The translations under genes were made by a program, and so were the position numbers. Shown here one piece after another: positions 27,400 through 53,992 of a DNA stretch of 64,000 nt; positions within the stretch are counted from its first letter, which is position 1, and each line of letters opens with the position of its first letter. The DNA is taken from the NCBI RefSeq assembly GCF_030268225.1, contig NZ_BSQG01000001.1, positions 857,299-921,298 on the forward strand, given 5' to 3'. The notes below the pieces were generated by a model. That model had not been told where the DNA came from. It did no database searches and saw only the letters and a program-made list of their open reading frames with translations. Source of the stretch: Nocardiopsis ansamitocini. Its GTDB lineage: Bacteria; Actinomycetota; Actinomycetes; Streptosporangiales; Streptosporangiaceae.

Positions 27400-28509
27400 T
27401 CACTCGCCCAGGTCCACAACCGCTGCAACGGGCCCACCACCGGAGGGGCCCTGGTGAACGGCCGCAACCGAGACGAAGACCGCGGGGTCGCCGGTGACCG
27501 CAGCGGTGACCCCGCCGACAGTCGCCTTGATCTGGCGGTGCCAGTGCACGTCGCTGTCGTCGAGCATGATGTTGCGGCGCCCACGCACCCGGCCGGTGGG
27601 ATCGGCCTCACACTTGAGGAACACATTGACCAGAGCGCTGCCGAGATCGCTGGAGTGCGGGCGTTCGGGGAGTTCGAGGCCCGCCGAGCGGATCGCCCCC
27701 CACACGCCGTCGGCGTCGAGGGCGTCGCGCATAACGCTGTGTCCTACGCGGAAACGACCGCCGATGCCCCGTGCGTTGCCGACGACCACGATTTGGGCCC
27801 GGTCCAGTTCGACACCGGAGGAGCAGGAGGCGACCGAGGAGTAGAGGGACAGGTCGGCGTGAATCTGCTCGGCCGCGGGCTCCTCGATCTCCCCGAGCGC
27901 CACCGCGATGCCCAGCGCGGTCGTGGAGTTGGAGACATCCATGGACTTGAGGGTGTCCTCGGTGAACACCGAGTGCCCACGGGACTTCGCGTCGTTGATC
28001 GTCTCCAGCACCAGGAGCGGCGTCTTGGTCTGGACGTAGTGCACATCGGCGGGATCGGTGATCCCGGCGGTCTTCATCGCGGCGCGTACGCCCTCGGCGA
28101 CCTTGGCGACCATCGCGGGCCGGCCGATGTCCTCGGGCAGGATCTGCTCGCTCATGGCGACGCCGACGGTGACCCTGGGCTCGTCGGTGGGCGTGTAACG
28201 GCCCTGGGGGGCGTAGGCGAAGACCGTGGCGTGCGGGGAGATCACCCCGTCCGTTCCACCGGACCAGACCAGCGGCACCTCTTGTGCCTGGTCGTCGGTG
28301 CGAGTCCCCTTGGCGACCAGGACCTCTCTGAACGCCCGATCGGCGAGGATGCGGGTGTAGTCGTTGACTCCGCCGTTTCCCTCGGTCTTGCCGATCACCG
28401 CGAGCACGTCGTCGGCGGCGAACACTCCGTCGTCGATCAGCCGAGCGAGACCGGATGCGTCCGTCACGCTCTCGATCGCGACTTTGTGGACTTCGATAGG
28501 CCTGGTCAC
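27400..28509 (-). CDS. Barbiturase-like ring-opening amidohydrolase
   Basis: 369 residues, a full member of the cyanuric acid amidohydrolase/barbiturase family, which opens six-membered cyclic ureides by hydrolysis. The three-repeat fold is visible with one Lys-Ser pair per repeat: Lys41 ([11 protein letters not shown]) with Ser83 (WSGGTDGV), Lys162 (VQTKTPLL) with the serines at 226-231 (SSVASCSSG), and Lys299 (VFLKCEAD) with Ser347 ([10 protein letters not shown]). From memory of the family, [26 protein letters not shown] and VHWHRQIK fit barbiturase better than cyanurate hydrolase. The GTG has GAGGAGAGG upstream. It follows carbamate kinase in the pyrimidine-type locus. Confidence 0.85.
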
Positions 28510-28589
28510 TGTGGGGCCACCTCTCCTCGTAGCGGTACTTTCCTTGTTGCCGGACACATGGATCCGTGCCGGTTTCGAGCGTCCCGAGG

Positions 28590-29537
28590 TCAGCCGGGTT
28601 CGACCACTGTTCCGGCCTCCCCGGCGATCCCCTCGGCCAGCCGGTCGAGCGCGGTGATCACCGCCCGGCCTCCCCCTTCGACGACGAACCGCAGCGCGGC
28701 CTCGACCTTGGGCCCCATACTGCCCCCGGCGAAGTGCCCGGCGACAGCATGGCGGCCGAGTTCGGTGGCGCTGATCCGACCGATCGGCACGGCGTCGGGC
28801 GAGCCGTAGCGCAGGATCGCGTTGGGCACATCGGTCGCGATCACCAGGGTCTGGGCCTGGACCGTGCGGGCCAGCAGAGCGGCCGTGCGGTCCTTGTCCA
28901 GTACGGCCTCCACCCCGCGCAGCGCGCCCGACGCGTCCCGCACCACCGGTATCCCCCCACCGCCCGCGGCGACGGGAACGATCCCCGCGGCCAGCAGCGC
29001 GTGGACGGCGGGGGCGTCGAGGATCTCGTGCGGCTCCGGGGAGGCGACCACCCGGCGCCATCCACGCTCGCCGAAATCGGTCCAGTTCTGGCCCAGGGCG
29101 ATGAACTCGGCGGCCTGGGCGGCAGGCAGGTAGCGGCCGATCGGTTTGTCCGCAGCGGTGAACGCAGGGTCCGCGGCATCCACCAGGGTCCGGGTCACGA
29201 TCGCCGAGACGCACCGAGGCGTCCCTCGGGCAGCCAGTGCCGTCTCCAGCGCGCCGGCCATGGTGAAACCGATGGTTCCCTGGGTCTGGGCCCCGCACCA
29301 GTCGAGCGGCACGGGCGGGACCACGTGCGCGGCCATCTCGTTCTTGACCAGGAGGTTGCCCACCTGCGGTCCATTGCCGTGCGTCAGAACGACCTCGGTG
29401 TCGTCGACGATCAGTGCGGCGATGTCGCCCATCGCCGCTTCGATGGCCCTGCGCTGGTCGTCAGGGCGCGCGCTTCCGTCGGGGGTGGTCATGGCGTTGC
29501 CGCCGAGGGCGACAAGAACGCGGCGCGGTTGGGACAT
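28590..29537 (-). CDS. Carbamate kinase
   Basis: 315 residues, usual length. Transfers phosphate from carbamoyl phosphate to ADP, yielding ATP and carbamate. Family motifs: [10 protein letters not shown] (residues about 6-15), [47 protein letters not shown] and [13 protein letters not shown], then [15 protein letters not shown]. The ATG follows GAGGAG. No arginine deiminase genes are near; the companions are instead a barbiturase-like enzyme and, 20 kb away, carbamoyltransferase-type subunits. This points to carbamoyl phosphate from ureide breakdown. Confidence 0.94.
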
Positions 29538-29732
29538 CTGGCTCCTCGGGCAAGCGCTCCTCAAAAAGCGGTGCTGCCGACTCTAGAAGAGCACCCCATC
29601 TACATCCCGGTCCACAGTTGCCCAAGAAGGTCGGATTGAATGTCACAAGTAGCCATATGGTCCGGCTAGGCCCCGCGCGGCCCGAGGCAGGGCGGGGCCG
29701 GTCGCGCGGCTGCGCGACCGGCCCCGATCCGG

Positions 29733-30737
29733 TTACCGCCGGCGCGCGGCCCTGGTCCGCACGAACGCGTCGCGCTCCTCACGGCTGAGGGCCATGCGGG
29801 CCTCGCGACGCAGGCATTCGTAGGCGTCCAGGCCCGGGCGGCGCAGCAGGGTGCGCAGGGTCCGGCCGTTGCCGCGCAACCCGTGGGCGTCGTAGTAGTC
29901 GAACATCGCCGCCAGCCCCGCGCGCACCGGCTCGGCCATGCCCGCCTCCTCCGCCCGGGACCGCCACTCGTCCAACGGGACCGTCACCGCGGTCACCGGA
30001 CTGCCCAGCACGGTACCGAAAGCGCCACTGACCTGACGGACCGACACGTTGCGCGGTCCGGCCAGCTCGTAGACGGCGAAGGAGTGATCGTCGTCGGCGC
30101 CGTGGTCGTCGAGCGCCGCGAGCCCCACTCTCGCGTCGTCGCGGAACAGGTCGGCCTCGGGTGCGCGAACCGGCTCGGTGAGGCAGCGCGCCGCCACCGC
30201 GGCGACGTCCCACAGGTCGACCATCGCGAACTCCACCTCGATGGAGTAGGGCACCCGTAGCTGTCCGGTGGCGCGCACGGTGTCGAGTTCGGCCAACAGG
30301 TTCTGCGCGTAGGGACCGGGTTGGAGCACCGTGACGTTGAGGCCCGACCTGAAGAGCGCCTCCTCCACCAGGAGTTTGGCCCAGTGGTGCGGCATCGCCT
30401 GGATCTGGGGCCGCAGGACCGAGTGGTAGACCACCCGCCACACACCGGCGGCCTTGGCCGCCGAGATCAGCGTCTCCCCGATCTCGACCTCGTCGGGACT
30501 CATATTGGGCGCGATGTGGTAGATCGCGTCCACCCCCGAGGCCGCCTGCTTCAGGACGGCGCGGTCGCGCATGTCACCGACGACCGTCTCCGCCGCTCCC
30601 CAGGTGCGCGCCCCGGCGCTCTGGTCCTCGCGGTGCACCAAGGCCCGGGCCCGCGCCCCTTTGTGGGCGAGCGCGGCCAGGACGGCACGCCCGGTCTTGC
30701 CGGCCGCTCCGGTCACGAGGACCCGTGGTTGTGTCAC
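29733..30737 (-). CDS. NmrA-like NAD(P)-binding protein
   Basis: 334 residues. VLVTGAAGKTGRAVLAALA (residues about 6-24) is the glycine-rich NAD(P) motif of atypical short-chain dehydrogenases. PNMSPDEVEIGETLISAAKA, LNVTVLQPGPYAQNLL and VDLWDVAAVAARCL fit the NmrA group, which act as redox sensors or reductases and often lack the catalytic tyrosine. The GTG overlaps the hyuB-like stop by 4 bases with GGAGG upstream, so it belongs to the same operon. Its job there is unknown. Confidence 0.82.
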   Translation of the reverse strand: MTQPRVLVTGAAGKTGRAVLAALAHKGARARALVHREDQSAGARTWGAAETVVGDMRDRAVLKQAASGVDAIYHIAPNMSPDEVEIGETLISAAKAAGVWRVVYHSVLRPQIQAMPHHWAKLLVEEALFRSGLNVTVLQPGPYAQNLLAELDTVRATGQLRVPYSIEVEFAMVDLWDVAAVAARCLTEPVRAPEADLFRDDARVGLAALDDHGADDDHSFAVYELAGPRNVSVRQVSGAFGTVLGSPVTAVTVPLDEWRSRAEEAGMAEPVRAGLAAMFDYYDAHGLRGNGRTLRTLLRRPGLDAYECLRREARMALSREERDAFVRTRAARRR

Positions 30738-32608
30738 AGTCGATCCACCTCCGAGGATGTCGCGCCCCCCGACAGGATCGCGTAACCCGGCCCTCTGTCG
30801 AAGAAGGGAAGGTCGGGGTCGCGGTCGGCGCGCAGTCGGTCGCGCAGCCGCTCGGTCGCGGCCAGATCGGCCTGGGGGGTGCTGTCCGGTCCGTTGACCA
30901 CCACACCGTAATCCTCCCGGGCCGCCTCCCGTGAGACTTTGCCCCAAAGCACATCGCAAAGGACGGAATCGACTTCCCGTTCCAGCGGATCGCCCCAACC
31001 GCCCCCGCCGGTGGTACGGATCCGGATCACCTCTCCTGCACGCACCGGCTCGGCGTCGACCAGCCCGTCCATCTCCCGCTCGTTGGGGCCGCCCGGGTCG
31101 ATGGTGACCTGGAACGGCCGGCCGGCCTTGCCGCCCTTGACCCCCCAGCAGGACAGGATGGAACGGTCGGCGATGGACATGAAGGAGGCGTCGCGCAGCA
31201 TCCGGATGTGCTTCTCGTACCCCAGTCCGCCGCGGTAGCGCCCCGCTCCCCCGGAGTCACGGGCCAGCCCCAACCGCTCCACGAGGAACGGGAACCGTGA
31301 CTCGGTGAACTCGGTGGGCAGGTTGCGGGAGTCGGGCACGACGTGGATGGTGTCCTCGCCGTCCGCGTAGTAGCGTCCGCCGGAGCCACCGCCAAGCACC
31401 TCGCGCATCAGGTAGTGCTCGCCGCGCTCATCCGTGCCGTGCACTCCGGTGTAGCGGATGGTCTCCTGGTCGGCGGGCATGCGTCCGTCCACTGCCTTGG
31501 CGAGAACCCCCGACAACACGCCCAGCAACCGCAGGATGACGAAGGTGCGTGCGTTGGTGGGGGCTGGGAAGACCGGGGTGAGCAGGGTGCCCTTGGGCGG
31601 GAAGCGCATCTCGATGAGCGGCACGACGCCCTCGTTGACGTCGAGTTCGGCCATGCGTTCGGGAGTGTCTGCGAGATTGCGCAGGATCGGGGCCAGCCAC
31701 TTCTTCAGGAAGTTGCCGTCGGCGTAGTCTCCGCAGTGGTTGATGGGCCCCTTCGCCTGGGCCGAGGTCCCGGTGAAATCGATGATGATCTTGTCGGGGA
31801 CCTTGGTGAGGGTGATGCGCTGGGTGTGCAGTTTGGGGGCGTCCACGCCGTCGTGCTCGGCGTAGTCCTCCCACACGTAGGTGCCGTCGGGGATCTTGGC
31901 CAGGATCTCGCGCCGGTAGGTCTCGGTGGTCTTGGCCAGTAGCGCGTCGAAGCACGCCTCGACGGTGGCCCGACCGTAACGGGCGAACAGCTCGCCCAGG
32001 CGACGCGCGCCCATGAGGCAGGCCGAGCACTCGGCGTCGAGGTCGGCTGCCAGCGAGTCGGGCATCCGTGAGTTGCGGGTCATGATGCGCAGCGCCGCTT
32101 CGTTGGGCACGCCCCGGTCCCACAGGCGGATCGGCGGGACCATCAGGCCCTCCTCATACACCGAGGTGGCGCCTGAGGGCATCGAACCGGGGCAGCCGCC
32201 GCCGATGTCGTCGTGATGTCCGAACGCCTGCACGAACGCGACGACCTCGGGTCCGTCACCGTCGTCGTGGAAGACCGGGACCGTGACGCACAGGTCCGGC
32301 AGGTGCCCGATACCGCCCTCGGACTCGTAGACGTCGTTGTGGAAGAAGACGTCCCCCGGATTCATCGTCTCCAGGGGGAAGTCACGGGCGATGGGGTGCA
32401 CCAGCGCGGAGTAGGAACGGCCGGTGAGCTTGCGCAACCGGCGGTCGTGAATCCCTGCGCGGAAATCGTGTGCGTCGCGGATCATGGGCGACCGGGAGGT
32501 GCGGGCGATCGCCGTCTCGACTTCTTTCTCGACCGAGGCCAGGCTGCCCTCGACGATCTCCAGCAGGACGGGATCCACAACGAGTGCGGCGGTGTTCGTG
32601 GCGGTCAT
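30734..32608 (-). CDS. Hydantoinase B / oxoprolinase family subunit
   Basis: 624 residues. Recognised by the N-terminal DPVLLEIVEGSLASVEKEVE, RDAHDFRAGIHD, FHNDVYESEGGIGHLPDLCV and QAFGHHDDIGGGCPGS, and the C-terminal RTTGGGGWGDPLERE, all typical HyuB. With HyuA these enzymes couple ATP hydrolysis to opening a lactam/hydantoin ring, or to carboxylation in relatives. The gene starts three bases past the hyuA-like stop. Substrate is unknown. Confidence 0.93.
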   Translation of the reverse strand: MTATNTAALVVDPVLLEIVEGSLASVEKEVETAIARTSRSPMIRDAHDFRAGIHDRRLRKLTGRSYSALVHPIARDFPLETMNPGDVFFHNDVYESEGGIGHLPDLCVTVPVFHDDGDGPEVVAFVQAFGHHDDIGGGCPGSMPSGATSVYEEGLMVPPIRLWDRGVPNEAALRIMTRNSRMPDSLAADLDAECSACLMGARRLGELFARYGRATVEACFDALLAKTTETYRREILAKIPDGTYVWEDYAEHDGVDAPKLHTQRITLTKVPDKIIIDFTGTSAQAKGPINHCGDYADGNFLKKWLAPILRNLADTPERMAELDVNEGVVPLIEMRFPPKGTLLTPVFPAPTNARTFVILRLLGVLSGVLAKAVDGRMPADQETIRYTGVHGTDERGEHYLMREVLGGGSGGRYYADGEDTIHVVPDSRNLPTEFTESRFPFLVERLGLARDSGGAGRYRGGLGYEKHIRMLRDASFMSIADRSILSCWGVKGGKAGRPFQVTIDPGGPNEREMDGLVDAEPVRAGEVIRIRTTGGGGWGDPLEREVDSVLCDVLWGKVSREAAREDYGVVVNGPDSTPQADLAATERLRDRLRADRDPDLPFFDRGPGYAILSGGATSSEVDRL

Positions 32609-32611
32609 GGC

Positions 32612-34735
32612 TCAGCGCTCCTGGTCGGTCGGGGCGGTGGCGGCGTCGGCGGTGACCAGCACGTTGCCGTAGCCGTCGATCCGGGCGGTGAACCCGGGGT
32701 GCAGCGGAATGGTGGAGCCGAACTCCTCGATGATCGCGGGCCCCTCGATCCGGTCGCCGGACGCGAGGTCGGCACGGCGGTAGACGGGGGTTGTGCGGTA
32801 GCCGGGCCGGGCACCCTCGTCGAAGTGGACGTCGCGGTGCCCGCTCAGCGCCCGCTCGGGTCCCCCCTCCCCGCTGGGCAGTTCGCGCAGTTCCGGCCGG
32901 CGGATCCGGCCGACACCCGTGACGCGCAGGTTGACCCATTCGACCTGCTGGTCGGTGTCGCCACGGAAGTCGTAGCCATAGAGGGAGCGGTGGGCGTCGT
33001 GGAACGCCTCGGCGACCGCGTCGGCCAGCGACGCGTCCACCGGACCGTCGGGCACCGCTACCCGCACCTCGTACGCCTGACCGAAATAGCGCAGGTCGGC
33101 GGTGCGCGCGTAGTGGTGGTCGGGGCGGGCGAAACCCTCCCGTTCGAGGGCGTCGGCCGCGGAGCCGGTGAGCTCGGCCAGGATCGACCCGACCGCGACC
33201 AGGTCGAGTTCGGTGTGCCGGGTGACGTGGGTCTGAACGTAGTCGTTCTTGACGTCCACGGTGAGCAGGCCGAACGCGGAGACGTTGCCGGGGTCCCTGG
33301 GGACGATCGCGCCGGCCAGACCGAGGATGTCGATGAGCCTGCACAACAGCAGTGACCCGGATCCGCCGAAGGTCGCCATGTGGAAGTCGCGGACGTCCAG
33401 GCCCCTCTGCACGGTGATCTGGCGCAGGGCGTTGGCCTGGTTCCACGCCGAGATCTCCAGGATTCCGGTTGCCGCCTTCTCCACACCGATCCCCAGTTCC
33501 TGGGCGATCTTGGCGATGCCCTCCCTCGCGGATCCTGCGTCCAGGCCGATCTCCCCGCCCAGCAGGTGCGGGGGGATCCTGCCCAGGAGGACGTGGGCGT
33601 CGGTGATGGTGGGTTCGGTGCCGCCGTTGCCGTAGCAGATCGGGCCCGGATCGGCACCGGCCGAGTGCGGTCCGACCTTGAGCGCCCCCTCGGGCGAGAT
33701 CCACGCCACCGACCCGCCGCCGGCCCCGACCGTGACGATGTCGATCATCGGGATCTTGGAGGGGTAGCGGCCGATACTGCCCTCGGTGGTGAGGCCCGGC
33801 TCGCCGCCGAGGACGACCGAGACGTCGGTGGAGGTGCCGCCGCCGTCGAGGGTGAGGACGCGGTCGAACCCTGCGCGCGCGGCGATCAGGGCCGCTCCCA
33901 GCGCGCCTGCGGCGGGGCCGGACAGCACCGTGGTGATGGGCTGGTGCACGATCTCCTCGGCGGAGAGCACTCCGCCGTTGGACTTCATGATGGAGAAGGG
34001 CACGCGCCGCTGCTCCGCGGTGAGCGGCCCGGCGTCGATGCGGGAGCGGATACCGCCGACGTAGCGGGCGACACGCGGCTTGACCGCCGCGTCGACCAGG
34101 GTGGTCATCGCACGCTCGTACTCGCGGTATTCGCGCAGGACCTCGGAGCTGATGGAGACGACCGCGTCCGGGTGCTCCGCGCGCAGGATCTCGCGGACCC
34201 GCTCCTCGTGGGAGGGGTCGGCGTAGGAGTGCAGCAGGCAGACCCCGATGGTGTCGATGCCCTGGTCCCGGAACCAACGGGCGGCTTCGGCGGCCTGCTC
34301 CTCGTCGAGGGGGCGCACCTGGGCGCCGGTGTGGTCGAGGCGTCCGCCCACGGTGCGCACCCGGTCGACGGGGACGATCCGGTCGGGCTTGACCCAGAAG
34401 TAGGAGTTGCCGTAGCCGTCGGGGACGGCCTGGCGGGCGATCTCCAGAAGGTACTCGTAGCCCTCGGTGGTGATGAAACCCAGGCGGCCGATCTTGTCTT
34501 CGAGCAGCTGGTTGGTGGCCACGGTGGTCCCGTGGGCGACCGCGCTGACCTCGACGTCGCCGCCGAGCAGCTCCACCACCTTGGCGATGCCGTTCATGAA
34601 CCCGTCCGCGGGGTCCGCAGGCGTCGAAGGGGTCTTGGTCGTGGTGATTTCCCCGGTGTCCTCGTCGAAGGCCACGACGTCGGTGAAGGTACCGCCGGTG
34701 TCGATGCCGATCCGGACTCGCCGTTGCCGTGCCAT
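32612..34735 (-). CDS. Hydantoinase A / oxoprolinase family subunit
   Basis: 707 residues. ASKHA-fold ATPase subunit: GIDTGGTFTDVVAFDEDTGE at residues 10-29, AHGTTVATNQLLE at about 68-80, VLSGPAAGALGAALIA, LTLDGGGTSTDV and VGAGGGSVAW. The length matches HyuA of N-methylhydantoinases. It pairs with the next gene. The operon with hyuB, the NmrA-like gene, carbamate kinase and the barbiturase-like gene suggests cyclic-ureide or amide breakdown. Confidence 0.93.
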   Translation of the reverse strand: MARQRRVRIGIDTGGTFTDVVAFDEDTGEITTTKTPSTPADPADGFMNGIAKVVELLGGDVEVSAVAHGTTVATNQLLEDKIGRLGFITTEGYEYLLEIARQAVPDGYGNSYFWVKPDRIVPVDRVRTVGGRLDHTGAQVRPLDEEQAAEAARWFRDQGIDTIGVCLLHSYADPSHEERVREILRAEHPDAVVSISSEVLREYREYERAMTTLVDAAVKPRVARYVGGIRSRIDAGPLTAEQRRVPFSIMKSNGGVLSAEEIVHQPITTVLSGPAAGALGAALIAARAGFDRVLTLDGGGTSTDVSVVLGGEPGLTTEGSIGRYPSKIPMIDIVTVGAGGGSVAWISPEGALKVGPHSAGADPGPICYGNGGTEPTITDAHVLLGRIPPHLLGGEIGLDAGSAREGIAKIAQELGIGVEKAATGILEISAWNQANALRQITVQRGLDVRDFHMATFGGSGSLLLCRLIDILGLAGAIVPRDPGNVSAFGLLTVDVKNDYVQTHVTRHTELDLVAVGSILAELTGSAADALEREGFARPDHHYARTADLRYFGQAYEVRVAVPDGPVDASLADAVAEAFHDAHRSLYGYDFRGDTDQQVEWVNLRVTGVGRIRRPELRELPSGEGGPERALSGHRDVHFDEGARPGYRTTPVYRRADLASGDRIEGPAIIEEFGSTIPLHPGFTARIDGYGNVLVTADAATAPTDQER

Positions 34736-34809
34736 CAGCGCCGCTCCCTACATCAGTTCTCTGCGGTGATGTAAGGATTCAACTGCGCCGAATGAACGGT
34801 TTAATCGGC

Positions 34810-34838
34810 AATACCTGCCAACAGAGTTGGCAGGTATT
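34810..34838. promoter_or_regulatory. 12-bp perfect inverted repeat upstream of the hyuA-like gene
   Basis: Arms AATACCTGCCAA and TTGGCAGGTATT around five bases, 75-103 bases upstream of the hyuA-like start and 69-97 bases past the response-regulator stop. It is AT-richer than its surroundings and without a T-run, which favours an operator over a terminator. The binding protein is unknown; PucR or the neighbouring response regulator are candidates. Confidence 0.5.
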
Positions 34839-36921: not shown

Positions 36922-37036
36922 GTCGGCAACGCTAGTCAGGCGCCCGTCCGCGCACCCGCCCTGTAGTACCCGAACCGATGGTGGGGACAGCCATACCCCG
37001 GTCCGGGCCTGCCAGGGGCAGTCCCGGACCGGCTGG

Positions 37037-42346: not shown

Positions 42347-42350
42347 GCGT

Positions 42351-44786: not shown

Positions 44787-45328
44787 CAGCGGTCTCCTGG
44801 GGTGCGCGCGTCCTCGGGTGCGGCCTGCTCGGGAACCGGCATGCCGTCGGCGCGCCGGAGTTCGGCGGCGCGCAGGACCGCCCGCACGATGTTCTGGTAG
44901 CCGGTGCAGCGGCACAGGTTGCCGCCGATGGCCTCGCGGGCCTGCTCTTCGGTGGGGTCGGGGTTGTCGTCGAGGTAGGCGGCGGCGACGTTAAGGAAGC
45001 CGGGCGTGCAGAACCCGCACTGGAGCCCGTGGCACTCGCGGAAGGCGCGCTGCACCGGGTGCAGGGTTCCGTCTGCGGCGGCCAGCCCCTCGACGGTGGT
45101 GATCTCGTGGGCCTGGGCGGTGACCGCGAACATCAGGCAGGACCGCATCGGGCGACCGTCGATGCGGACCGTACAGGCACCGCAGACGCCGTGTTCGCAA
45201 CCCACGTGGGTCCCGGTGAGTCCGAGGTCGTGGCGCAGGCAGTCGGAGAGCAGGCGTCGGGCGGGAACGGTGGCGGTGTGCACCGCCCCGTTGACCCGCA
45301 ACCGGATCTCGTGCAGTTCCTCGCTCAT
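44786..45328 (-). CDS. Molybdenum hydroxylase small [2Fe-2S] subunit
   Basis: 180 residues. The plant-type ferredoxin cluster is held by Cys44, Cys49, Cys52 and Cys64 (HVGCEHGVCGACTVRIDG) and the second cluster by Cys104, Cys107, Cys139 and Cys141 (LQCGFCTPGFL and GNLCRCTGYQNIV). It passes electrons from the Mo site to the FAD subunit. ATG after AAGGAG, overlapping the FAD-subunit stop by four bases. Confidence 0.96.
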   Translation of the reverse strand: MSEELHEIRLRVNGAVHTATVPARRLLSDCLRHDLGLTGTHVGCEHGVCGACTVRIDGRPMRSCLMFAVTAQAHEITTVEGLAAADGTLHPVQRAFRECHGLQCGFCTPGFLNVAAAYLDDNPDPTEEQAREAIGGNLCRCTGYQNIVRAVLRAAELRRADGMPVPEQAAPEDARTPGDR

Positions 45329-46236
45329 GTGGGGGCTCCTTCCCGGGCGCTCTCGGCCGGATCGAGGCTGGTGCGGATCGCGGCCTGGGCGGCCTCGCGC
45401 AGTGCCCGCGCGGTGAGGACCTCGGCCAGGTGCGCGCGGTATTCGGCGGTGGCGTGGATGTCCTCCTCCGGTTCCAGGCGTCCGCGGGTCATCCGACCGG
45501 CTGCGGCGAAGTCGGCGGTACCGGGAGGACGTCCGGCCAGGGGCTCGGTGAGGTCGAGCACGAGCGGGACCGGGGCGACCGAGAGGTAGGCGGCACGGGC
45601 CGCACATACCCGCAGGTCCTGGTCGAGGGTGACCAGGGCCGCCACACCGCACATCGCGTAGTCGCCGTGCCTGCGGGCCAGTTCGGCGAACGCCGTTCCG
45701 CTGCCCGCGGGTGGACGGGGGAAGTGCGCCGAGACCAGCAGTTCACCGGTGCGCAGACTGCTCTCCATGGGACCGACGAAGAAGTCGGCGACGTCGATGG
45801 TGCGCTCCCCGTCGGTACTGGCCGCGACCACGCTTCCCCCCAGCAGGGCCAGTGCCGCCGTCATCTCGGCGGAGGGGTCGGCGTGGGCGAGGCTGCCCAC
45901 GGTCGTGCCGCGGTTGCGGATGACCGGGTGCGCGACGAGGCGCAGCCCCTGACCCAGCAGGGGGACGGCCGCGGCCGCGGCCGGGTCGGCTTCGACTCTG
46001 GAATGCCTGGCGAGGGCACCCACCCGTACCCCGGTGGCGTCGGTGTCCACGCGGTCCAGTTCGGTGATCCCGTTGATGTCCACGAGGTGGGCCGGCGCCG
46101 CGAGGCGCATGTTCAGCAGCGGGATCAGGCTCTGGCCACCGGCGAGGACCTTGCCGTCGGAGCCGGTCTCGGCGAGCAGGGACAGGGCATGGGGCAGGGA
46201 TGCTGGAGCGTGGTACGAGAACGGCGGTGGCTTCAC
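45325..46236 (-). CDS. Molybdenum hydroxylase FAD subunit
   Basis: 303 residues. Recognised by the FAD motifs VLAGGQSLIPLLNMR (residues about 30-44) and RNRGTTVGSLAHADPSAEM (about 107-125) of the CoxM/xanthine-dehydrogenase medium-subunit family, and the C-terminal CO_deh_flav region. It starts at GTG after AAGGGGA. Gene order medium-small-large with overlapping stops and starts is the standard operon form. Confidence 0.95.
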   Translation of the reverse strand: MKPPPFSYHAPASLPHALSLLAETGSDGKVLAGGQSLIPLLNMRLAAPAHLVDINGITELDRVDTDATGVRVGALARHSRVEADPAAAAAVPLLGQGLRLVAHPVIRNRGTTVGSLAHADPSAEMTAALALLGGSVVAASTDGERTIDVADFFVGPMESSLRTGELLVSAHFPRPPAGSGTAFAELARRHGDYAMCGVAALVTLDQDLRVCAARAAYLSVAPVPLVLDLTEPLAGRPPGTADFAAAGRMTRGRLEPEEDIHATAEYRAHLAEVLTARALREAAQAAIRTSLDPAESAREGAPT

Positions 46237-46302: not shown

Positions 46303-47697
46303 TCAGGTTCTGGTGCTGTCCTCCGGCGTGTCGTAGGAGGGGGTGTCGTAGGCGCTCATCGGGAGCGGCTTGGGTTTGAGCTCGGCCGGGGCCAGGGCGT
46401 TCAACAGGTGGTAGCCCACGAGGGTGATGATCGTGCCCAGGGCGATGCCGTTGATGACGAAGCTCTCGGTGAAGGCGAGTTCGACGTTGCCGATTCCGGC
46501 GACGAGTCCCGCCGCGATCGGGACCAGGACCAGGGGGTTTGCGAAGTCGACTCTGCTCTCCACCCAGATCTTGGCGCCGAGCAGGCCGATCATGCCGTAG
46601 AGCACCACGGTGATGCCGCCGAGGACACCGGAGGGAGTGGCTGCCACGAGGGCGCCGAACTTGGGGCAGAAGCCGAAGAGGATCGCGACGATCGCCGCCA
46701 CGTAGTAGGCGGCCGTGGAGTAGACGCGGGTCGCCGCCATGACGCCGATGTTCTCGGCGTAGGTGGTCGTGGGCGAGCCGCCGAGGGAACTGGACAGTGC
46801 GGTGGCGACGCCGTCCGCCAGGATGGCGCGGCCCATGTAGGGGTCGAGGTCCTCCTTGGTCATCTCCTGGACGGCCTTGACGTGGCCGGCGTTCTCCGCG
46901 ATGAGGGCGATGACGGCGGGCAGGGCGACCAGGATGGCGGAGGTCTGGAACTCGGGGGCGTGCAGGGCCGGCAGGCCGATCCAGGAGGCGTCGGCGACGC
47001 CCGAGAGGTCGACGCGCATGGCGCTGGCGACGGTCCCGTCGTCCTGGACGACCTGGTGCATACCGAAGACGAGGTCGAAGACCCACGACATCAGGAAGCC
47101 GAACACCAGGCCCAGCAGGATGGTGATGCGTCCGAGGAAGCCCTTGAGCAGGACCGTGGCCAGGACCACGAAGGCCATGGTCAACAGGCCGATCCACTGG
47201 TCGACGGGCCAGTAGACGGTGGCCACGACAGGGGCGAGGTTGAACCCGATGAGCATGACGACCGCGCCGGTCACCGGCGGGGGGAACGCCTTGAGGACGA
47301 CGACCGGGCCGAGCAGGTGGATGGCGAGCCCGCAGAGCGCCAGCACCACCCCGGCGACCAGGATCGCCCCGGTGAGGACAGCCGGGTTCTCCCCGTTGGG
47401 AGAGATGATGACGGCCGCGCCCACGAAGGCGGCGCTGGTGCCCAGATAGCTGGGGACCCGGCCCTTGACGATCAACAGGAAGAGAATGGTGCAGAAACCC
47501 GACATCATGATGGCCAGGTTCGGGTCCAGGCCCATGATGATCGGGAAGACGAACGTCGCGCCGAACATGGCGACGACGTGCTGGGCTCCGAGCCCTGTTG
47601 TACGTCCCCAGGACAGCCGTTCCTGGGGCTTGACGACCTCTCCCGGGGGTGGGGCGCTGCCGTCCCCGTAGAGCTTCCAGCCCAAGCCGAGCTTCAT
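46303..47697 (-). CDS. NCS2 nucleobase permease (UraA/RutG-like)
   Basis: 464 residues, about 14 membrane segments. GLGAQHVVAMFGATFVFPII (residues about 35-54) is the NCS2 first-helix motif. The substrate-site motif reads PTTTYAENIGVMAATRVYS, which resembles the GENIGVMAxTRVYS motif of uracil permeases rather than the QNNG motif of xanthine/urate permeases. This supports import of uracil or a similar pyrimidine. First gene of the molybdenum-hydroxylase operon, ATG after TTGGAGG. Confidence 0.93.
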   Translation of the reverse strand: MKLGLGWKLYGDGSAPPPGEVVKPQERLSWGRTTGLGAQHVVAMFGATFVFPIIMGLDPNLAIMMSGFCTILFLLIVKGRVPSYLGTSAAFVGAAVIISPNGENPAVLTGAILVAGVVLALCGLAIHLLGPVVVLKAFPPPVTGAVVMLIGFNLAPVVATVYWPVDQWIGLLTMAFVVLATVLLKGFLGRITILLGLVFGFLMSWVFDLVFGMHQVVQDDGTVASAMRVDLSGVADASWIGLPALHAPEFQTSAILVALPAVIALIAENAGHVKAVQEMTKEDLDPYMGRAILADGVATALSSSLGGSPTTTYAENIGVMAATRVYSTAAYYVAAIVAILFGFCPKFGALVAATPSGVLGGITVVLYGMIGLLGAKIWVESRVDFANPLVLVPIAAGLVAGIGNVELAFTESFVINGIALGTIITLVGYHLLNALAPAELKPKPLPMSAYDTPSYDTPEDSTRT

Positions 47698-48175
47698 ACC
47701 CGCCTCCAAAATGACGCTTCTGGCGCGACTGGGCACCCCCCGGTGGACCCGATCCGCAGTCCCCGCGAACCAGCCGGACGTGATCTGGTTCACTAATTGG
47801 AGCAACACTAGGGACCTGCGGAAACCCGCTTCACTAGCGACAACTGCTGAATACCCTCTACCCAGTTGTGCAGTGCTGCCCAACACGGCCGCGGACCTGT
47901 CGGAGGGAGCCGTCGCGGTTTGCCACGTACCGCAGTTGCGTGTCCGGTCCTCGCGAACACGCAGGGTCCAGTTCGGCACGACTCAATGTCCAAATTGTCG
48001 CGCCCCAATTTCCCACGCGTTACCTGGCAGCGGATAACGATGTGACTTCACCACACGTCGGGCTTCCCACCTGTGGTTTCAGCGATTGTGCACAGAAGGA
48101 GCCCCCATCTTTCGGCAATCACCGCGGGTCCGGGCTGCGCTGGCGACGGAGCGGGCCGGGTGCCCCCGCCCTGCG
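47698..48175. other. Promoter region of the permease/Mo-hydroxylase operon
   Basis: 478 bases between the permease start and the PucR stop, with no gene. Lower GC than its flanks. It holds two exact copies of TTCACTA (47789-47795 and 47830-47836), 41 bases apart, about four helical turns, which could be regulator sites. Confidence 0.4.
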
Positions 48176-49897
48176 CTAGGTCAGCCCACGCATCTGGATC
48201 ACCCGCAGGGCCACCATCAGGTTGAGCCTCAAGTGGGGGTCGGTGGTGAAGGGGCCGAGCATGCGTTCGAGCTTGCCGATCCGGTACCGCAGGGTGTTGT
48301 AGTGAAAGTGCAGCAGGCGGGCGGTCTCGGCCACGTTGAGGTTGTTGTCCAGCAGCACTTCCAGGGTGGTGCGCAGATCGTCCACCTCGGCGTCGCCACG
48401 CACCGCCAGGCCGCCCAGTGTCTCCGTCATGAACGCCTGGAGCTCGGCCCCGTCCGGCACCAGGCTGATCAGCCGGTAGACGCCGAGGTCGTCGAAGTCT
48501 GCGACGGCCCCTACCCCGTACATCTGGCGGCCCACCCGCGCGGCCTGGCGGGCCTGCTCATAGGCCGCGGGAATCTGCTCGGGTTTATGCACGATGCGGC
48601 TGACCCCGGTGGCGAAGGAGCGCCGGCCACCACCACCGTCACCCGAGACCTGACCGACCATGGTGCGGACCAGCCGGCCGGGCCCTGGTGCACCGACGGA
48701 GTCGTCGGCCCCCATGACCACCACGACCTCCTGGCTGTACCCGGCGACGGCCGCTCGGGGATCGCGTTCGCGCACCACCATCGTCCAGGCACTGGCGAAC
48801 CGTTCGTGAGCGGGACGCAGATCACCGGCGGCGGGCACCCTGGTGTCGGACTCGGCGTCCATCTCGGCGACCACCACGACGAGGGGCCGGTCCACGTCCC
48901 ATCCCAGCGTCGCGCAGTGACGGACCGCGTGCTCGGGGTCGCCCGCACGGCCCGCGAGCAGGTCGCGCAGGAAGTCGCCCTGGTACTTGCCCTCGACCGC
49001 GGCCACCGCGAGATCCCTGGTGATGACGAGCGCGGCGGTGGCGGCAGCACGTTCCAGAACGTGCACGTCGGTGGGATCGATGGAGCGCTCGTGGGTGATG
49101 AGGACGATGCGTCCGTGGTCGAGGTTCCCGGCGAGGACCGGGACCTGGACCACCCGGGCGTTGTCGTCGTCGAGGGCGCGGATGCCGTGCTTGCAACGCT
49201 CCACCTGGAAACGGCCGCTGGTGAGCTCGAAGTAGCGGGGGTCGGCAAGCGTCTCCTCCGACAGCCCCGACCTCGCGAGGACTCGTCCGTCCGGCGTGGT
49301 CACCATGACCCCGCCGTCCAGGAGAGCGGGCAGCTCGTTGGTGATCGCCGCCAGCCCACCGCCGGCGAGAACAACATTGACCAGTACCCGGTGGACCTCC
49401 TCGGCACGGGCGAGCGTTGCCGCCTGACGGTTGAGGATGTCGGTGAGCAGCTGGTTGAGGACGTCGTCGAAGGCGACTCCGTCCGGGAGACGCAGGAGCG
49501 GCAGACCGACCTCGTCGGCAGCGCGCAGCATCTCCGGGGGAAGCTCGTCCACATAGCGGCCGAGCTTGACGGCGAGTGCCGCCAGCCCCCGTGCGGCGAG
49601 CTCGCGCACGAGAGTGGCCAGTTGGTGCGGATCGTTGCGCAGCGGGTAGCCGGTGGTCAACAGGAGCTCGTCGGGTTTGACCCACGGCAGGATGTCGGGA
49701 ACCTCCATGACGTTGAGGCGTCGGATGGCCCGATCCATCCCGCCCGTACCGGCGACGACCCGTGTCCCGGCCAGACTGGACAACTCCATTGCCTCGGCGA
49801 CGCTCAACCCGCGCGCCAACGTACTGGAGGCGTGCACACGGTCCGAGCTAGTCAGATTATGTCCAGTGCCGTCGTGATCGTTGGCAACGTTTTCCAT
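48176..49897 (-). CDS. PucR family transcriptional regulator
   Basis: 573 residues. N-terminal PucR domain (about 30-160, with LSVAEAMELSSLAGTRVVAG and LLLTTGYPLRNDPHQLATLV), a central GGDEF-like CdaR region (about 310-450) and a C-terminal HTH_30 (VLLDNNLNVAETARLLHFHY, NTLRYRIGKLERMLG). PucR regulators control purine, pyrimidine or amino-acid catabolism. Divergent from the DUF2877-fdrA-DUF1116 operon with only 72 bases between starts, so direct control of both is likely. Confidence 0.95.
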   Translation of the reverse strand: MENVANDHDGTGHNLTSSDRVHASSTLARGLSVAEAMELSSLAGTRVVAGTGGMDRAIRRLNVMEVPDILPWVKPDELLLTTGYPLRNDPHQLATLVRELAARGLAALAVKLGRYVDELPPEMLRAADEVGLPLLRLPDGVAFDDVLNQLLTDILNRQAATLARAEEVHRVLVNVVLAGGGLAAITNELPALLDGGVMVTTPDGRVLARSGLSEETLADPRYFELTSGRFQVERCKHGIRALDDDNARVVQVPVLAGNLDHGRIVLITHERSIDPTDVHVLERAAATAALVITRDLAVAAVEGKYQGDFLRDLLAGRAGDPEHAVRHCATLGWDVDRPLVVVVAEMDAESDTRVPAAGDLRPAHERFASAWTMVVRERDPRAAVAGYSQEVVVVMGADDSVGAPGPGRLVRTMVGQVSGDGGGGRRSFATGVSRIVHKPEQIPAAYEQARQAARVGRQMYGVGAVADFDDLGVYRLISLVPDGAELQAFMTETLGGLAVRGDAEVDDLRTTLEVLLDNNLNVAETARLLHFHYNTLRYRIGKLERMLGPFTTDPHLRLNLMVALRVIQMRGLT

Positions 49898-49969
49898 GTG
49901 GAGACGATAGCGGCTCGCATAGCGTCATCACCCAGGTCAGGTCCGCCGGATGCGGGAAGGGGAGACGCA

Positions 49970-50926
49970 GTGGCCGATTATTGGCCAGAGCAGGACGTGG
50001 CGCAGTACTCCCCCCGGACGCAGACCTGTGCTTGGGCCACGCACCGAGGAGCGAGGTCCCCCCGGCGGACCGGGACTTTTCCCGCGGCCAACCGGGCCGG
50101 GGCCGCGGCGTCGGGTCTTTACGACATTATGAGCGGCCCGTTCCGGCCTGCGCGGGTACTGGGAGCATTCCGCTCGGCGGTCTACCTTGAACTGGAGGAC
50201 TCCCCGAGGCCGGCCGTGGTGGCGGTACTGGCACACGACGCCGTTCGGTTGCCCAACGGGGTGGTCCTCGCCGAACCTCAGAGCGTCTGGCCGTTCGCCG
50301 ACGTGGCCCCGGCCACGTCGGCTCGCATCGGTCGATGCTCCGTGGTTCTCGACAGCCCCACCGGCTCACTCACCGTCCAAGTGGGCCGGTGGTGGCGGCC
50401 GTCGCGTCCCCGTCCGCCTGCCGCTCCACCCGGACCCGCCGCCGCTGCACTGGCCGCGCTGGGAAAAAACCTGGCCGACACCACCGGCGGGCTCTCTTCC
50501 GGTCTGCTGGCGCTTCTCGCGCCGGCTCTGGACGACCCCGCTGCGGCTCGGCGGGCCGCCCACGCACTGGTCGGCCTGGGCCCCGGTCTCACCCCGAGCG
50601 GCGACGACGCCGTATGCGGATTCGTCCTCGCCGTACGTCACCTGGGCAACCGTTCCACCCCACTGACCACTGCCGCGCTCCGGCGTGCCCGCACCGCGAC
50701 CACGTCGCTGTCGGCGACCCTGCTGGAGTACGCCGCGCGCGGTGAAGCCTGTCCGCAGGCGGTCGCCCTGATCGACGCGGTCGCAGGACACGCACCGGTG
50801 GGCCCCGCGCTGACGGCGCTGCGCACGGTCGGCCATACCTCCGGAACCGACCTCGCCCTGGGCGTCCTCGCCGGAGCCGGGGCACTGACTTCTCCATCCC
50901 CACCAGCAGACAGGGAGCGTCCGTGA
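49970..50926 (+). CDS. DUF2877 protein (AllH/YlbF-like carbamoyltransferase subunit)
   Basis: 318 residues. The domain starts near residue 50 (GPFRPARVLGAFRSAVYLEL, then DAVRLPNGVVLAE) and has the conserved HALVGLGPGLTPSGDDAVCG motif, followed by RTVGHTSGTDLALGVL. DUF2877 is E. coli YlbF, a subunit of oxamate carbamoyltransferase with FdrA and YlbE. I chose the GTG with AAGGGGAG upstream; ATG 50129 would cut the N-terminus of the domain. It overlaps fdrA by 4 bases. Confidence 0.83.
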   Translation: MADYWPEQDVAQYSPRTQTCAWATHRGARSPRRTGTFPAANRAGAAASGLYDIMSGPFRPARVLGAFRSAVYLELEDSPRPAVVAVLAHDAVRLPNGVVLAEPQSVWPFADVAPATSARIGRCSVVLDSPTGSLTVQVGRWWRPSRPRPPAAPPGPAAAALAALGKNLADTTGGLSSGLLALLAPALDDPAAARRAAHALVGLGPGLTPSGDDAVCGFVLAVRHLGNRSTPLTTAALRRARTATTSLSATLLEYAARGEACPQAVALIDAVAGHAPVGPALTALRTVGHTSGTDLALGVLAGAGALTSPSPPADRERP

Positions 50927-52428
50927 CGAGCAAAACGGCGGCCAGCGCCACTACGGTGCAGATCCGCAAAGGCGCCTACCGGGACTCGGTCGCGTTGATG
51001 AGCGTGAGCAGGACCGTCGCCGGCTTCGAGGGGGTGACCGCGGCGCTGGTGGCCATGGCCACCGAACTGAACCTGGAACTGTTGGCCCAGATGGACGCCG
51101 AAGTTCCTTCCGGCACCGGCCCCAACGACCTCGTCATCGCGGTGCGTGCCGACGACGAGGCGACCCGCTCGGCTGCCCTGGAGCTGGCCGATACCGAACT
51201 TGCGGCCATGGGCCGAAGCGGTACCGGCAGCACCGGCGGCGATGACGCGGCCCCGCCCCGGTCGATGCGCAGCGCCGTCGAGCGAGCGGCGGGCAACGGA
51301 ACTCCCCCCGCGCTGGCCCTGGTGTCGGTGCCGGGCCGTTACGCCGCAGCCGAGGCGTTCGAGGCGTTGGAGACCGGGTTGGACGTGCTGATCTTCAGCG
51401 ACAACGTCCCCGTTGCGCACGAGATCGCGCTGAAGGAGCGGGCCGCTGAACTGGGGCGCCTGGTGATGGGGCCCGACTGCGGCACGGCAGTGGTCGGCGG
51501 GGCCGGACTGGGGTTCGCCAACACCGTTCGTCCCGGGCCCGTCGGAATCGTTGCGGCCTCGGGGACCGGCGCCCAGCAGTTGATGTGCCTGCTGGACGCT
51601 GCCGGAGTAGGCGTCGGACACTGCCTGGGCGTGGGCGGGCGGGACCTGTCCGCGGCGGTGGGCGGTCGCTCCACCCTCCAGGCGTTGCAGCTGCTCGACG
51701 CCGACGAGGCAACCGAGCGGATCGTCGTGGTCTCCAAACCGCCCGCGCCGGAGGTCGCAGCGGCGGTGCGGGCCGCGTCCGCGGCCCTGGACACCCCGGT
51801 CCATCTTGTGCTGCTGGGAACCGGCGACGACATCAGCGCTGCCGCGGCCGAGGTGGTCACGGCATTCGGCGCCCCCGCCCCGACCTGGCCGTCCTGGTTC
51901 CCTGCCGGGGCGGTCACGCCTCGTGCCGGGGCACTGCGCGGCCTGTTCTGCGGGGGAACGCTCGCCGACGAGGCGATGCTGGTGGCGGCTCGCGCGCTGG
52001 GCCCGATCGCCTCCAACATCCCGCTGCGGCCCGGGGAGGACGCGTGGACCCTGCCGGCCGACCTGCGCCACGACGGCCACCTGGTGATCGACTTCGGCGA
52101 CGACACCCTCACCGCCGGACGTCCGCACCCGATGATCGACCCGTCGGTGCGGGAGGAACGGCTGCGTGCGGAGCTCGCCGATCCCGCCACCGGTGTCGTA
52201 CTGCTGGATCTGGTTCTGGGGCACGGTGCGCACCCCGACCCCGCGGCCGGGGTGGCGGCGGCCGTCCGGGATTCAGGCGGCACGGTACCGGTGGTGGTGA
52301 CGCTGTGCGGCAGCAGTGGCGATCCGCAGGGCCTGGAGCGCCAGGCGACCGTGCTGACCGACGCAGGCGCCGAGGTGTACCTGTCCAATGCCGCGGCGGC
52401 CCGCCGGGCACTGGAGCTGCTGGAGTGA
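50923..52428 (+). CDS. fdrA: FdrA-like carbamoyltransferase subunit (CoA-ligase fold)
   Basis: 501 residues. The N-terminal regulatory-like part (IRKGAYRDSVALMSVSRTVA) is followed by a succinyl-CoA-synthetase-like Rossmann region (ALALVSVPGRYAAAEAFEAL, RLVMGPDCGTAVVGGAGLGF, VGIVAASGTGAQQLMCLLD) and a second domain (LRGLFCGGTLADEAM; LDLVLGHGAHPDPA). FdrA, YlbE and YlbF together form the E. coli oxamate carbamoyltransferase. The GTG start overlaps the DUF2877 stop. The true substrate here is inferred to be ureidomalonate or oxalurate. Confidence 0.9.
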   Translation: MTSKTAASATTVQIRKGAYRDSVALMSVSRTVAGFEGVTAALVAMATELNLELLAQMDAEVPSGTGPNDLVIAVRADDEATRSAALELADTELAAMGRSGTGSTGGDDAAPPRSMRSAVERAAGNGTPPALALVSVPGRYAAAEAFEALETGLDVLIFSDNVPVAHEIALKERAAELGRLVMGPDCGTAVVGGAGLGFANTVRPGPVGIVAASGTGAQQLMCLLDAAGVGVGHCLGVGGRDLSAAVGGRSTLQALQLLDADEATERIVVVSKPPAPEVAAAVRAASAALDTPVHLVLLGTGDDISAAAAEVVTAFGAPAPTWPSWFPAGAVTPRAGALRGLFCGGTLADEAMLVAARALGPIASNIPLRPGEDAWTLPADLRHDGHLVIDFGDDTLTAGRPHPMIDPSVREERLRAELADPATGVVLLDLVLGHGAHPDPAAGVAAAVRDSGGTVPVVVTLCGSSGDPQGLERQATVLTDAGAEVYLSNAAAARRALELLE

Positions 52429-52570
52429 CCGCGGCCGGCGCGGGCCCCTCCCGCCGAGGAACACCCCGCACCGGAACGGCCCCGGCGTGTACTCGACCGG
52501 CGTCGGCCGTTCCGACCGCACAGCCCGTACCCGTGGACAACCGCCGCGCACCGCGATGAAAGGCCCATTC

Positions 52571-53992
52571 ATGTCCGGAGAATCCACCCTGCTCGCCACC
52601 GACCCTTCTGTCGTCTCGGTCGGCGCCGGGCTGTTCACCGACGCACTGACCGCCCAGGCCGTACCTGTCACCCCCGTGGAGTTCGCGCCCCCGATGGGCG
52701 ATGGTGCTCTCGACGAGGCGCTGGTACGCGTGCTGGCCGACCCACGGCGGGCCCAGGCCAACGCCACCGCCGTGGAACGGGTCCTCGCCGTGCGTCCGCA
52801 ACTGGTGGACGTGCGACCGGCCGGGGAGGCACTGGGGATGGCACCCGGCACCTTCTACCACGCGGGCCCCCCGATCACCTGGGAACGTGCCTCCGGGCCA
52901 CTGCGCGGTGCGCTGATGGGCGCGATGGTCTTCGAAGGCGTGGCGTCCACTCCCGAGGAAGCCCAGCAGGTGTTGGCATCGGGGGCCGTCGCCCTCGACT
53001 CCTGCCACCACCATGCGGCGGTGGGGCCGATGGCGGGCGTGATCAGCCCGTCCATGTGGGTGTTCGAACTCGTCGACGAGGCCAGCGGGCGCCGCGCCTT
53101 CTGCTCCCTCAACGAGGGGCTGGGGAAGGTTCTGCGCTACGGAGCCTATGGCTCCGAGGTGATCGAGCGGCTGCGCTGGATGTCGGCGGTCCTGGGACCG
53201 CTGTTGCGCGACGCGGTGCGTGCGGCAGGGGCCATCGACATCGGCGCGATCATCGCCCAGATGCTGCAGATGGGCGACGAGGGGCACAACCGCAACCGTT
53301 CGGGAACACTGATGCTGCTGCGTGAGCTGCTGCCCGCGCTCATCACCTCCGGGGCACCGGCCACCGACCTGGCCGAGGCGGTCCGTTTCGTCGGTGGCAA
53401 CGACCACTTCTTCCTCAACCTCGTGATGCCGGCGGGCAAACTCATGATGGACGCAGGACGCGACGTCCCCGGCTCCACCCTGGTCGTGGCCATGGCACGC
53501 AACGGGACCGACTTCGGCATCCAGGTCTCGGGCACCGGTGACACCTGGTTCACCGGCCCCGCACAGACCCCCGAGGGGTTGTTCCTGGGTGCATACGGCC
53601 CTGATGACGCCAACCCCGACATCGGGGACTCCGCCATCACCGAGACCTGCGGCATCGGCGGCATGGCGATGGCAACGGCTCCGGCGATCGTCCGCTTCGT
53701 CGGCGGTGACGTGGCGTTCGCGCTGGCCACCTCGCGCAGCATGTACGAGATCACGCTCGCCGAGAACCCGGCCTTCCAACTGCCGGTCCTCGACTTCCGT
53801 GGCGCACCCACCGGGATCGACGTCGCACGGGTGGTGCGGACCGGCATACTGCCCCAGATCAACACCGGAATGGCCGGGAAGGTCGCGGGCACCGGCCAGG
53901 TGGGTGCGGGTCTGGTCAACCCGCCGCAGGAGTGCTTCGCCCAGGCGCTCCTGGCACTGGCCGAGGCCGCTCCGAAACTCCCGGAGGGCTGA
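52571..53992 (+). CDS. DUF1116 protein (AllG/YlbE-like carbamoyltransferase subunit)
   Basis: 473 residues. VSVGAGLFTDALTAQAVPVT, VEFAPPMGD, RPAGEALGMAPGTFYHAGPP, DSCHHHAAVGPMAGVISPSM, LQMGDEGHNRNRSGTLMLLR and ETCGIGGMAMATAPAIVRFV are DUF1116/YlbE motifs, with several conserved His/Asp that may form the active site. It completes the DUF2877-FdrA-DUF1116 set. I chose ATG 52571, which follows AAAGG; ATG 52556 is in frame. Confidence 0.9.
   Translation: MSGESTLLATDPSVVSVGAGLFTDALTAQAVPVTPVEFAPPMGDGALDEALVRVLADPRRAQANATAVERVLAVRPQLVDVRPAGEALGMAPGTFYHAGPPITWERASGPLRGALMGAMVFEGVASTPEEAQQVLASGAVALDSCHHHAAVGPMAGVISPSMWVFELVDEASGRRAFCSLNEGLGKVLRYGAYGSEVIERLRWMSAVLGPLLRDAVRAAGAIDIGAIIAQMLQMGDEGHNRNRSGTLMLLRELLPALITSGAPATDLAEAVRFVGGNDHFFLNLVMPAGKLMMDAGRDVPGSTLVVAMARNGTDFGIQVSGTGDTWFTGPAQTPEGLFLGAYGPDDANPDIGDSAITETCGIGGMAMATAPAIVRFVGGDVAFALATSRSMYEITLAENPAFQLPVLDFRGAPTGIDVARVVRTGILPQINTGMAGKVAGTGQVGAGLVNPPQECFAQALLALAEAAPKLPEG

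Follow-up and report, generated by a model that had tools for sequence, protein, structure and literature searches.

The window, a 64,000-nucleotide stretch of DNA, belongs to the 5.53 Mb genome of the actinobacterium Nocardiopsis ansamitocini (G000) and carries, between the outer ends of a barbiturase gene and of AllG (positions 27400-53992, the limits also set by an earlier note on this DNA), a group of genes that would probably degrade pyrimidines by the oxidative route and save energy at the carbamoyl step. Family scans confirmed that all the genes named by that note are present and in frame. The barbiturase, a ring-opening amidohydrolase of the Toblerone fold (27400-28509, minus strand; PF09663, 492.8 bits, and TIGR02714, 540.7 bits, with a longer frame scanned), is separated by 80 bp from a carbamate kinase gene on the same strand (28590-29537), the product of which scores 315.9 bits with TIGR00746, under the cut-off of 358, and matches the curated model PRK12352 along its full length with 295.5 bits, over the cut-off of 266. 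A second carbamate kinase gene is found in the same genome at G000:C7:107914-108810 (TIGR00746, 364.5 bits, over the cut-off).

Further along, and also on the minus strand, intergenic distances of −4 to 4 bp join the genes for a CoxG-like subunit (41684-42346; PF06240, 90.7 bits), the large molybdenum subunit CoxL (42351-44786; NF040766, 1489 bits), the 2Fe-2S subunit CoxS (44786-45328; PF01799, 109 bits) and the flavin subunit CoxM (45325-46236; PF00941, 153 bits, and PF03450, 64.2 bits) of a molybdenum hydroxylase. The CoxL translation contains YRGAGR, which we take to be the form II motif, instead of AYRCSFR, presumably the active-site loop of form I carbon monoxide (CO) dehydrogenases, which was not found in it. 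The next gene on this strand codes for an NCS2 nucleobase permease (46303-47979), nearest to pyrimidine permeases (RutG, 374.5 bits; UraA, 272.2 bits; xanthine permease, 157.1 bits, all under the models' own cut-offs), and is followed by that of a PucR-type regulator (48176-49738; PF07905, 124.1 bits, and PF13556, 66.6 bits). Divergent from the latter, on the plus strand, the three carbamoyltransferase subunits are matched in one run (PF11392, PRK06091/PF00549 and PF06545): AllH or DUF2877 (50129-50926, the start being a chosen one; 84.4 bits in frame), which overlaps by 4 bp with AllF/FdrA (50923-52428; PRK06091, 385.9 bits, under its cut-off of 433; 228 bits to FdrA of PDB 3dmy), and AllG or DUF1116 (52571-53992; PF06545, 319.8 bits; 396 bits to PDB 3clq).

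Many actinobacteria carry this conserved set and appear to degrade uracil with it, part of the energy being kept as ATP through the pairing of an enzyme that opens barbiturate with one that makes carbamoyl phosphate and is familiar from allantoin breakdown. The NCS2 permease would import uracil or a related base, CoxMSL, as a proposed uracil/thymine hydroxylase, would convert it into barbiturate, and barbiturase would open the ring to give ureidomalonate (N-carbamoyl-malonamate). Phosphorolysis of this N-acylurea by AllFGH would then give malonamate and carbamoyl phosphate, from which carbamate kinase would make ATP, CO2 and ammonia at the expense of ADP, while malonamate would be deamidated and converted via malonyl-CoA into acetyl-CoA, the genes being under the control of PucR. 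The hydroxylase and AllFGH reactions, all the later steps and the role of PucR are those that we infer. Oxalurate, ureidomalonate and carboxybiuret are all N-acylureas ending in a carboxylate. The step shown for oxalurate (PMC11326118) would need only a longer acid to accommodate ureidomalonate. Candidates for the deamidation of malonamate are an amidase of the type of L262, discussed below, and a CN-hydrolase encoded beside CoxG in G085, G401, G423 and G428 and at loci L063 and L212. Long open frames hinted at a CoxG-CN-hydrolase fusion, which was rejected since an ATG of its own, past CoxG, starts the hydrolase and what precedes it reads as a shadow frame.

Comparison with solved structures bears out the earlier assignment of the window amidohydrolase to the barbiturase type, with 600.5 bits to PDB 5hwe ('Barbiturase') and at most 319.9 bits to the solved cyanurate hydrolases. 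In addition, 32 residues past a conserved lysine, an Asn is present in the window enzyme and in 5hwe, as opposed to the Arg of the cyanurate hydrolases, and over 107 loci, window included, the column of this Arg188 site holds 104 Asn, two Arg and one Ala. According to PMC4051656, only two subgroups have lost the Arg, with a glutamine in the barbiturase subgroup, where the sequences compared here have asparagine, and cyanurate is not a substrate of barbiturase. Two divergent homologues with other surroundings (L030 and L031, 41-42% identical) also have Asn in the Arg column, so that the residue alone is not enough to tell the types apart. In these two and in L032 (all of family f51, PF09663 proteins 40-42% identical to that of the window) the signature stretch aligns as FGPEYANDAAALG or shifted, the Arg column contains Asn or Ala, and their genomes yielded no AllG. 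When barbiturase-type proteins were sought in genus g5, around G050, only homologues of 39-43% identity were obtained, in 27 of 148 genomes.

Over the phylum, the association between barbiturase and AllG exceeds chance. In a sample of 396 evenly drawn genomes, a PF09663 protein was detected in 27 and AllG in 49. Twenty-two of the 27 proteins are of the barbiturase type (at least 69.9% identical to the window enzyme, with Asn), the other five being 38-44% identical (two with Arg and three divergent); AllG is present in all 22 genomes of the former group, as compared with 49/396 overall, and in none of the latter five (Fisher p = 7e-23, a value that ignores kinship). The 22 genomes belong to seven families (f1, f5, f6, f17, f34, f40 and f48, with 11 genomes in f17), and barbiturase and AllG share a contig in 17 of them, 3.7-44 kb apart, lying on different contigs in five. 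The co-occurrence of barbiturase with AllFGH expected by the earlier note thus held over the phylum, the exception being one Rhodococcus-like family that serves as a control. Carbamate kinase was found in 13 of the 15 regions fetched from the 22 genomes. Of 532 named loci with a close barbiturase the best 80 were taken; in 60 of these the kinase gene is just upstream of barbiturase on the same strand, and AllG was present in 48 of the 50 genomes tested. The Embleya and Nonomuraea records carry no annotated features over the stretches consulted.

In families f17, f40 and f48 the genes follow one another on one strand in the compact order barbiturase, NCS2, carbamate kinase, AllH, AllF, AllG, CoxM, CoxS, CoxL and CoxG, in a run that spans approximately 13-15 kb in the complete regions (L172, L173, L175 and L179), with one or a few extra genes in some; the runs of L174, L181 and L182 are truncated, either at the end of the region or at that of the contig. 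In L173-L175, L179 and L181 the PucR gene diverges from that of barbiturase. Carbamate kinase, which in the window adjoins barbiturase approximately 21 kb from AllFGH, is in one run with AllFGH in these clusters, most of which have barbiturase and AllFGH together with no HydA/HydB (hydantoinase/oxoprolinase-type subunits) within the fetched stretch. In three f40 clusters a cytosine-deaminase-like gene, scoring below the model cut-offs, lies between barbiturase and NCS2, which fits pyrimidines as the substrates.

The control is family f4, in which 43 of the 401 genomes sampled match the window barbiturase, 21 with a full-length protein 72-75% identical to it and one more with a fragment. The set was named Rhodococcus-like because the barbiturase of G664 differs at only 2 of 369 residues from PDB 5hwe, which we take to be the Rhodococcus erythropolis barbiturase. 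AllG was absent from 18 of these 21 genomes, distant in two (G842 and G810, 245-251 bits) and close in G606 (342 bits). Neighbourhoods were examined for 12, and in ten (L250-L254 and L257-L261) an amidase gene directly follows barbiturase, with neither carbamate kinase nor AllFGH found; the three of these amidases that were scanned are all of the PF01425 type. Of the remaining two, G606 has carbamate kinase beside barbiturase and AllFGH approximately 25 kb away, and G644 has HydA-HydB with neither carbamate kinase nor AllFGH. CoxMSLG, NCS2 and PucR also surround barbiturase in L250 and L251, and a uracil phosphoribosyltransferase is encoded in 7 of the 12 neighbourhoods. At 1e-20 the amidase of L250 (8190-9878, minus strand) was matched neither in the window nor in any of the 80 named loci, and nothing of at least 45% identity turned up in the AllFGH-type regions; genome-wide, in 36 genomes, identities above 70% were found only in G664, G774 and G842 (all the Rhodococcus-like genomes included).

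The replacement of AllFGH and carbamate kinase by an amidase next to a conserved barbiturase points to the ureidomalonate step, which seems, from gene content, to exist in two forms, namely hydrolysis, for which the f4 amidase is the candidate ureidomalonase, and phosphorolysis by AllFGH with carbamate kinase. We know of no gene so far assigned to ureidomalonase. Genes for a CoA-transferase III and an AccD/A-like protein, which had no match in the window, lie near barbiturase in 9 of the 12 Rhodococcus-like neighbourhoods and, within the stretch covered, each in 24 of the 80 named loci, the AllG-less Halopolyspora included; accompanying both types, they suit a malonyl product. Hydrolysis releases urea and phosphorolysis would not; urease is present in Rhodococcus-like genomes and need not be in those of the AllFGH type, a comparison confounded by kinship. 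Its alpha subunit was over the cut-off in 19/19 f4 genomes other than G606 and G644, of which only ten were seen to have the amidase, in G606 but not in G644, and, among the 22 sampled genomes of the AllFGH type, in three, with no match in that of the window.

The alternative that fares best, although we consider it unlikely, is that an unlinked amidase hydrolyses ureidomalonate to urea and malonate, AllFGH and carbamate kinase acting on some other acylurea, for example one produced by HydA/HydB. The best match to the proposed ureidomalonase in the window genome is 44% identical and unlinked, and an unlinked amidase of the same genome, 42% identical to it, has a homologue in Marinactinospora (G402), which possesses barbiturase and urease and lacks AllG. 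An amidase gene of this type directly follows AllG in G606 (L262), with homologues in the window genome (60% identical, on another contig, G000:C3:312144-313559), in G430 (63%, beside an AccD/A-like gene) and in Marinactinospora (58%). This amidase, 40-42% identical to the proposed ureidomalonase, might itself be a ureidomalonase, and that is the main weakness of the argument that none is present: the absence that the earlier note suggested looking for stands as far as close homologues of the proposed gene are concerned, and is weakened by the one amidase of 42% identity elsewhere in the genome. The phylogeny of AllG offers this alternative some help. In a tree of 70 proteins all 52 barbiturase-linked AllG fall on one side of a branch with 99/96 support, and their sister group consists of five AllG from f10 and f21 genomes that have no barbiturase; in the three f10 genomes CoxMSL (in L205 only CoxL) and HydA-HydB are found linked to AllG, with AllF. 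Against this alternative stand most of the compact clusters, in which AllFGH and barbiturase form one run with no HydA/HydB in the fetched stretch, and the scarcity of urease in the sampled AllFGH-type genomes as opposed to the Rhodococcus-like ones, even if the alpha subunit was detected in 27 of the 35 named ones tested.

More doubtful still, and in our view quite improbable, is that the substrate of AllFGH and carbamate kinase is, as in E. coli, oxalurate derived from purines or allantoin, their nearness to a pyrimidine cluster being due to chance. The E. coli enzyme, the member of the group that has been measured, does act on oxalurate/oxamate, with kinetics published for carbamoyl phosphate and oxamate (PMC11326118). 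AllD would make the oxalurate. PucR regulators are named for purine catabolism, and other rings could in principle be turned into N-carbamoyl acids by HydA/HydB. However, oxalurate as the substrate was tested through AllD in 32 genomes with AllG, and AllD was over the cut-off only in G380 and G388, 4-5 kb from AllG; none of the 22 barbiturase genomes had it over the cut-off, five showed weaker matches, and the window genome had no match at all. E. coli AllG groups with the AllG of G380 and G388, apart from the barbiturase-linked clade. The single run that AllFGH and barbiturase form in distant families, and the replacement of AllFGH and carbamate kinase by an amidase where barbiturase is kept, also argue against this alternative.

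Cyanurate has to be considered because NCBIfam labels the window enzyme, over the cut-off, 'cyanuric acid amidohydrolase' (CyanAcHdlAtzD), and because plasmids of enterobacteria and Aminobacter pair a cyanurate-type hydrolase with AllFGH and carbamate kinase. In two Klebsiella plasmids the hydrolase, NCS2, AllH, AllF, AllG and carbamate kinase form one run with atzF (allophanate hydrolase) close by, while in those of Aminobacter and K. quasipneumoniae the hydrolase is placed between AllG and carbamate kinase; atzF is near in three of the four annotated regions. Such sets (L214:13998-21639 on NZ_CP103667.1, L215, L217 and L218) could possibly phosphorolyse carboxybiuret to allophanate with formation of ATP. 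Cyanurate as the window enzyme's substrate was rejected on the bit scores and the Asn site. That the window cluster degrades cyanuric acid, with carboxybiuret cleaved by AllFGH to carbamoyl phosphate and allophanate, is thus highly improbable, given also the loop VSVAAVHQ of its hydrolase in place of the VSGG[AS]EHQ and Arg of the plasmid enzymes, the inactivity of barbiturase with cyanurate cited above, the pyrimidine-like permease and a molybdenum hydroxylase that cyanurate does not require, and the position of the two cyanurate-linked plasmid AllG (one per arrangement) at two places of the tree, both apart from the window AllG.

Against these alternatives, the reading put forward in the earlier note, that AllFGH would phosphorolyse ureidomalonate with a gain of ATP, is favoured by the co-occurrence data, the lack of AllD and the amidase exchange. 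The computation itself shows what the parts are, that they are associated in a conserved way, that the ring opener is of the barbiturase type, that AllG forms a clade of its own and that an amidase takes the place of AllFGH and carbamate kinase in one family. A number of observations nonetheless count against the pyrimidine route with phosphorolysis. In the window the genes form two groups, barbiturase-carbamate kinase and CoxMSLG-NCS2-PucR-AllFGH, with 12 kb between them, and no gene for the malonamate step was identified there. CoxL belongs, far over the cut-off, to the NCBIfam group CODH_aero_grp5, 'aerobic CO dehydrogenase', a name that may mislead for the CoxL group with YRGAGR found beside barbiturase. 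Cluster L181 of f40 has a xanthine-type permease (272 bits versus 137 for uracil permease), and HydA/HydB, which recur in AllFGH-type clusters, are without a place in the proposed scheme. Carbamate kinase was missing from the fetched regions of G279 and G304 and was not found around barbiturase in 20 of the 80 named loci, at least three of which are cut by a contig end. Halopolyspora (L064) and Marinactinospora (L070) have barbiturase and no AllG, the latter with urease and the former without, and the 18 of 21 f4 genomes devoid of AllG show that barbiturase does not need AllFGH. Finally, the frequency of urease in the named AllFGH-type genomes indicates that avoidance of urea is not general.

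The 12 kb between the two halves hold genes that the earlier note had left unnamed. They code for an NmrA-like NAD(P)-binding protein (29733-30737; PF05368, 97.7 bits), for HydB (30734-32608; PF02538, 472.4 bits) and HydA (32612-34735; PF01968, 288 bits, and PF05378, 169 bits), hydantoinase B and A/oxoprolinase-type subunits, and then for a two-component system, a protein resembling styrene monooxygenase and one that binds ATP, all on the minus strand. HydA/HydB accompany clusters even when AllG (L064 and L256) or barbiturase (L203-L205) is absent. A 436-codon open frame inside the cluster (36936-38246, minus strand) has no Pfam or NCBIfam match and may not be a gene. A scan of ten frames from between the halves in G403, G062 and the window showed no function in common (sulfotransferase, aminotransferase, TrkA-N/RyR, cytochrome bd subunits, transposase, UPF0158 and epimerase).

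With respect to known systems, the oxidative pathway of R. erythropolis (uracil/thymine dehydrogenase, barbiturase and ureidomalonase) shares with the window a barbiturase, 75% identical between the latter and G664, and differs in that the window is without a close homologue of its amidase and has AllFGH and carbamate kinase instead. In PMC3758960 this pathway is described as rare, ureidomalonase yielding urea and malonate (malonic acid) as its end products, with reference to Soong et al. 2001. The E. coli oxamic transcarbamylase AllFGH with AllK has the same three subunits plus carbamate kinase and, as proposed here, the same type of substrate, an N-carbamoyl amide of a small dicarboxylic acid. 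The window locus departs from it in the separate clade of its AllG, in the lack of AllD over the cut-off, in barbiturase as the ring opener, and in a proposed substrate one carbon longer. AllFGHK has been joined to oxalurate, beside triuret genes, in PMC12625717. The enterobacterial and Aminobacter plasmid cassettes resemble the locus in that AllFGH and carbamate kinase have a hydrolase of the Toblerone family near them, with NCS2 in Klebsiella aerogenes and oxytoca, and are distinguished by a cyanurate-type hydrolase (Arg), an AllG elsewhere in the tree and no molybdenum hydroxylase among the annotated genes examined. In Peptoclostridium, PucR, permeases, a cysteine hydrolase, AllFGH and carbamate kinase are found together. 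E. coli has a second AllFGH and carbamate kinase set beside an amidohydrolase (yahE-yahF-yahG-yahI-yahJ, L219:6595-13177), and an E. coli plasmid carries a cysteine hydrolase, AllH, AllF, AllG, carbamate kinase and a cytosine permease (L220:5813-13023). AllFGH with carbamate kinase, present beside several hydrolases, looks like a module shared by several ring openers. No paper was found that joins barbiturase or a cyanurate hydrolase to AllFGH, in a search that largely left out the subscription literature, so that an earlier mention is possible.

On balance we lean slightly towards a wider view, in which AllFGH-type enzymes would be general N-acylurea phosphorolases that no fewer than three ring-opening pathways (allantoin/oxalurate, pyrimidines/ureidomalonate and, on plasmids, cyanurate/carboxybiuret) have recruited, in every case together with carbamate kinase. 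In the second of these pathways they would stand in for a hydrolytic ureidomalonase, proposed to be the amidase beside the Rhodococcus-like barbiturase, and many of the 'group 5 CO dehydrogenases' would be pyrimidine hydroxylases. If this were true, the carbamoyl nitrogen of the ring would yield ATP with no urea or urease involved. Should the reading of the window locus be right, the barbiturase genomes of the phylum sample (22/22) would use a route that saves one ATP for each ring and makes urease unneeded. That reading also suggests a substrate for the large AllFGH group whose present name is oxamate carbamoyltransferase or acyl-CoA synthetase, puts forward a candidate gene for ureidomalonase, and casts doubt on the CO dehydrogenase name of the associated CoxL group.

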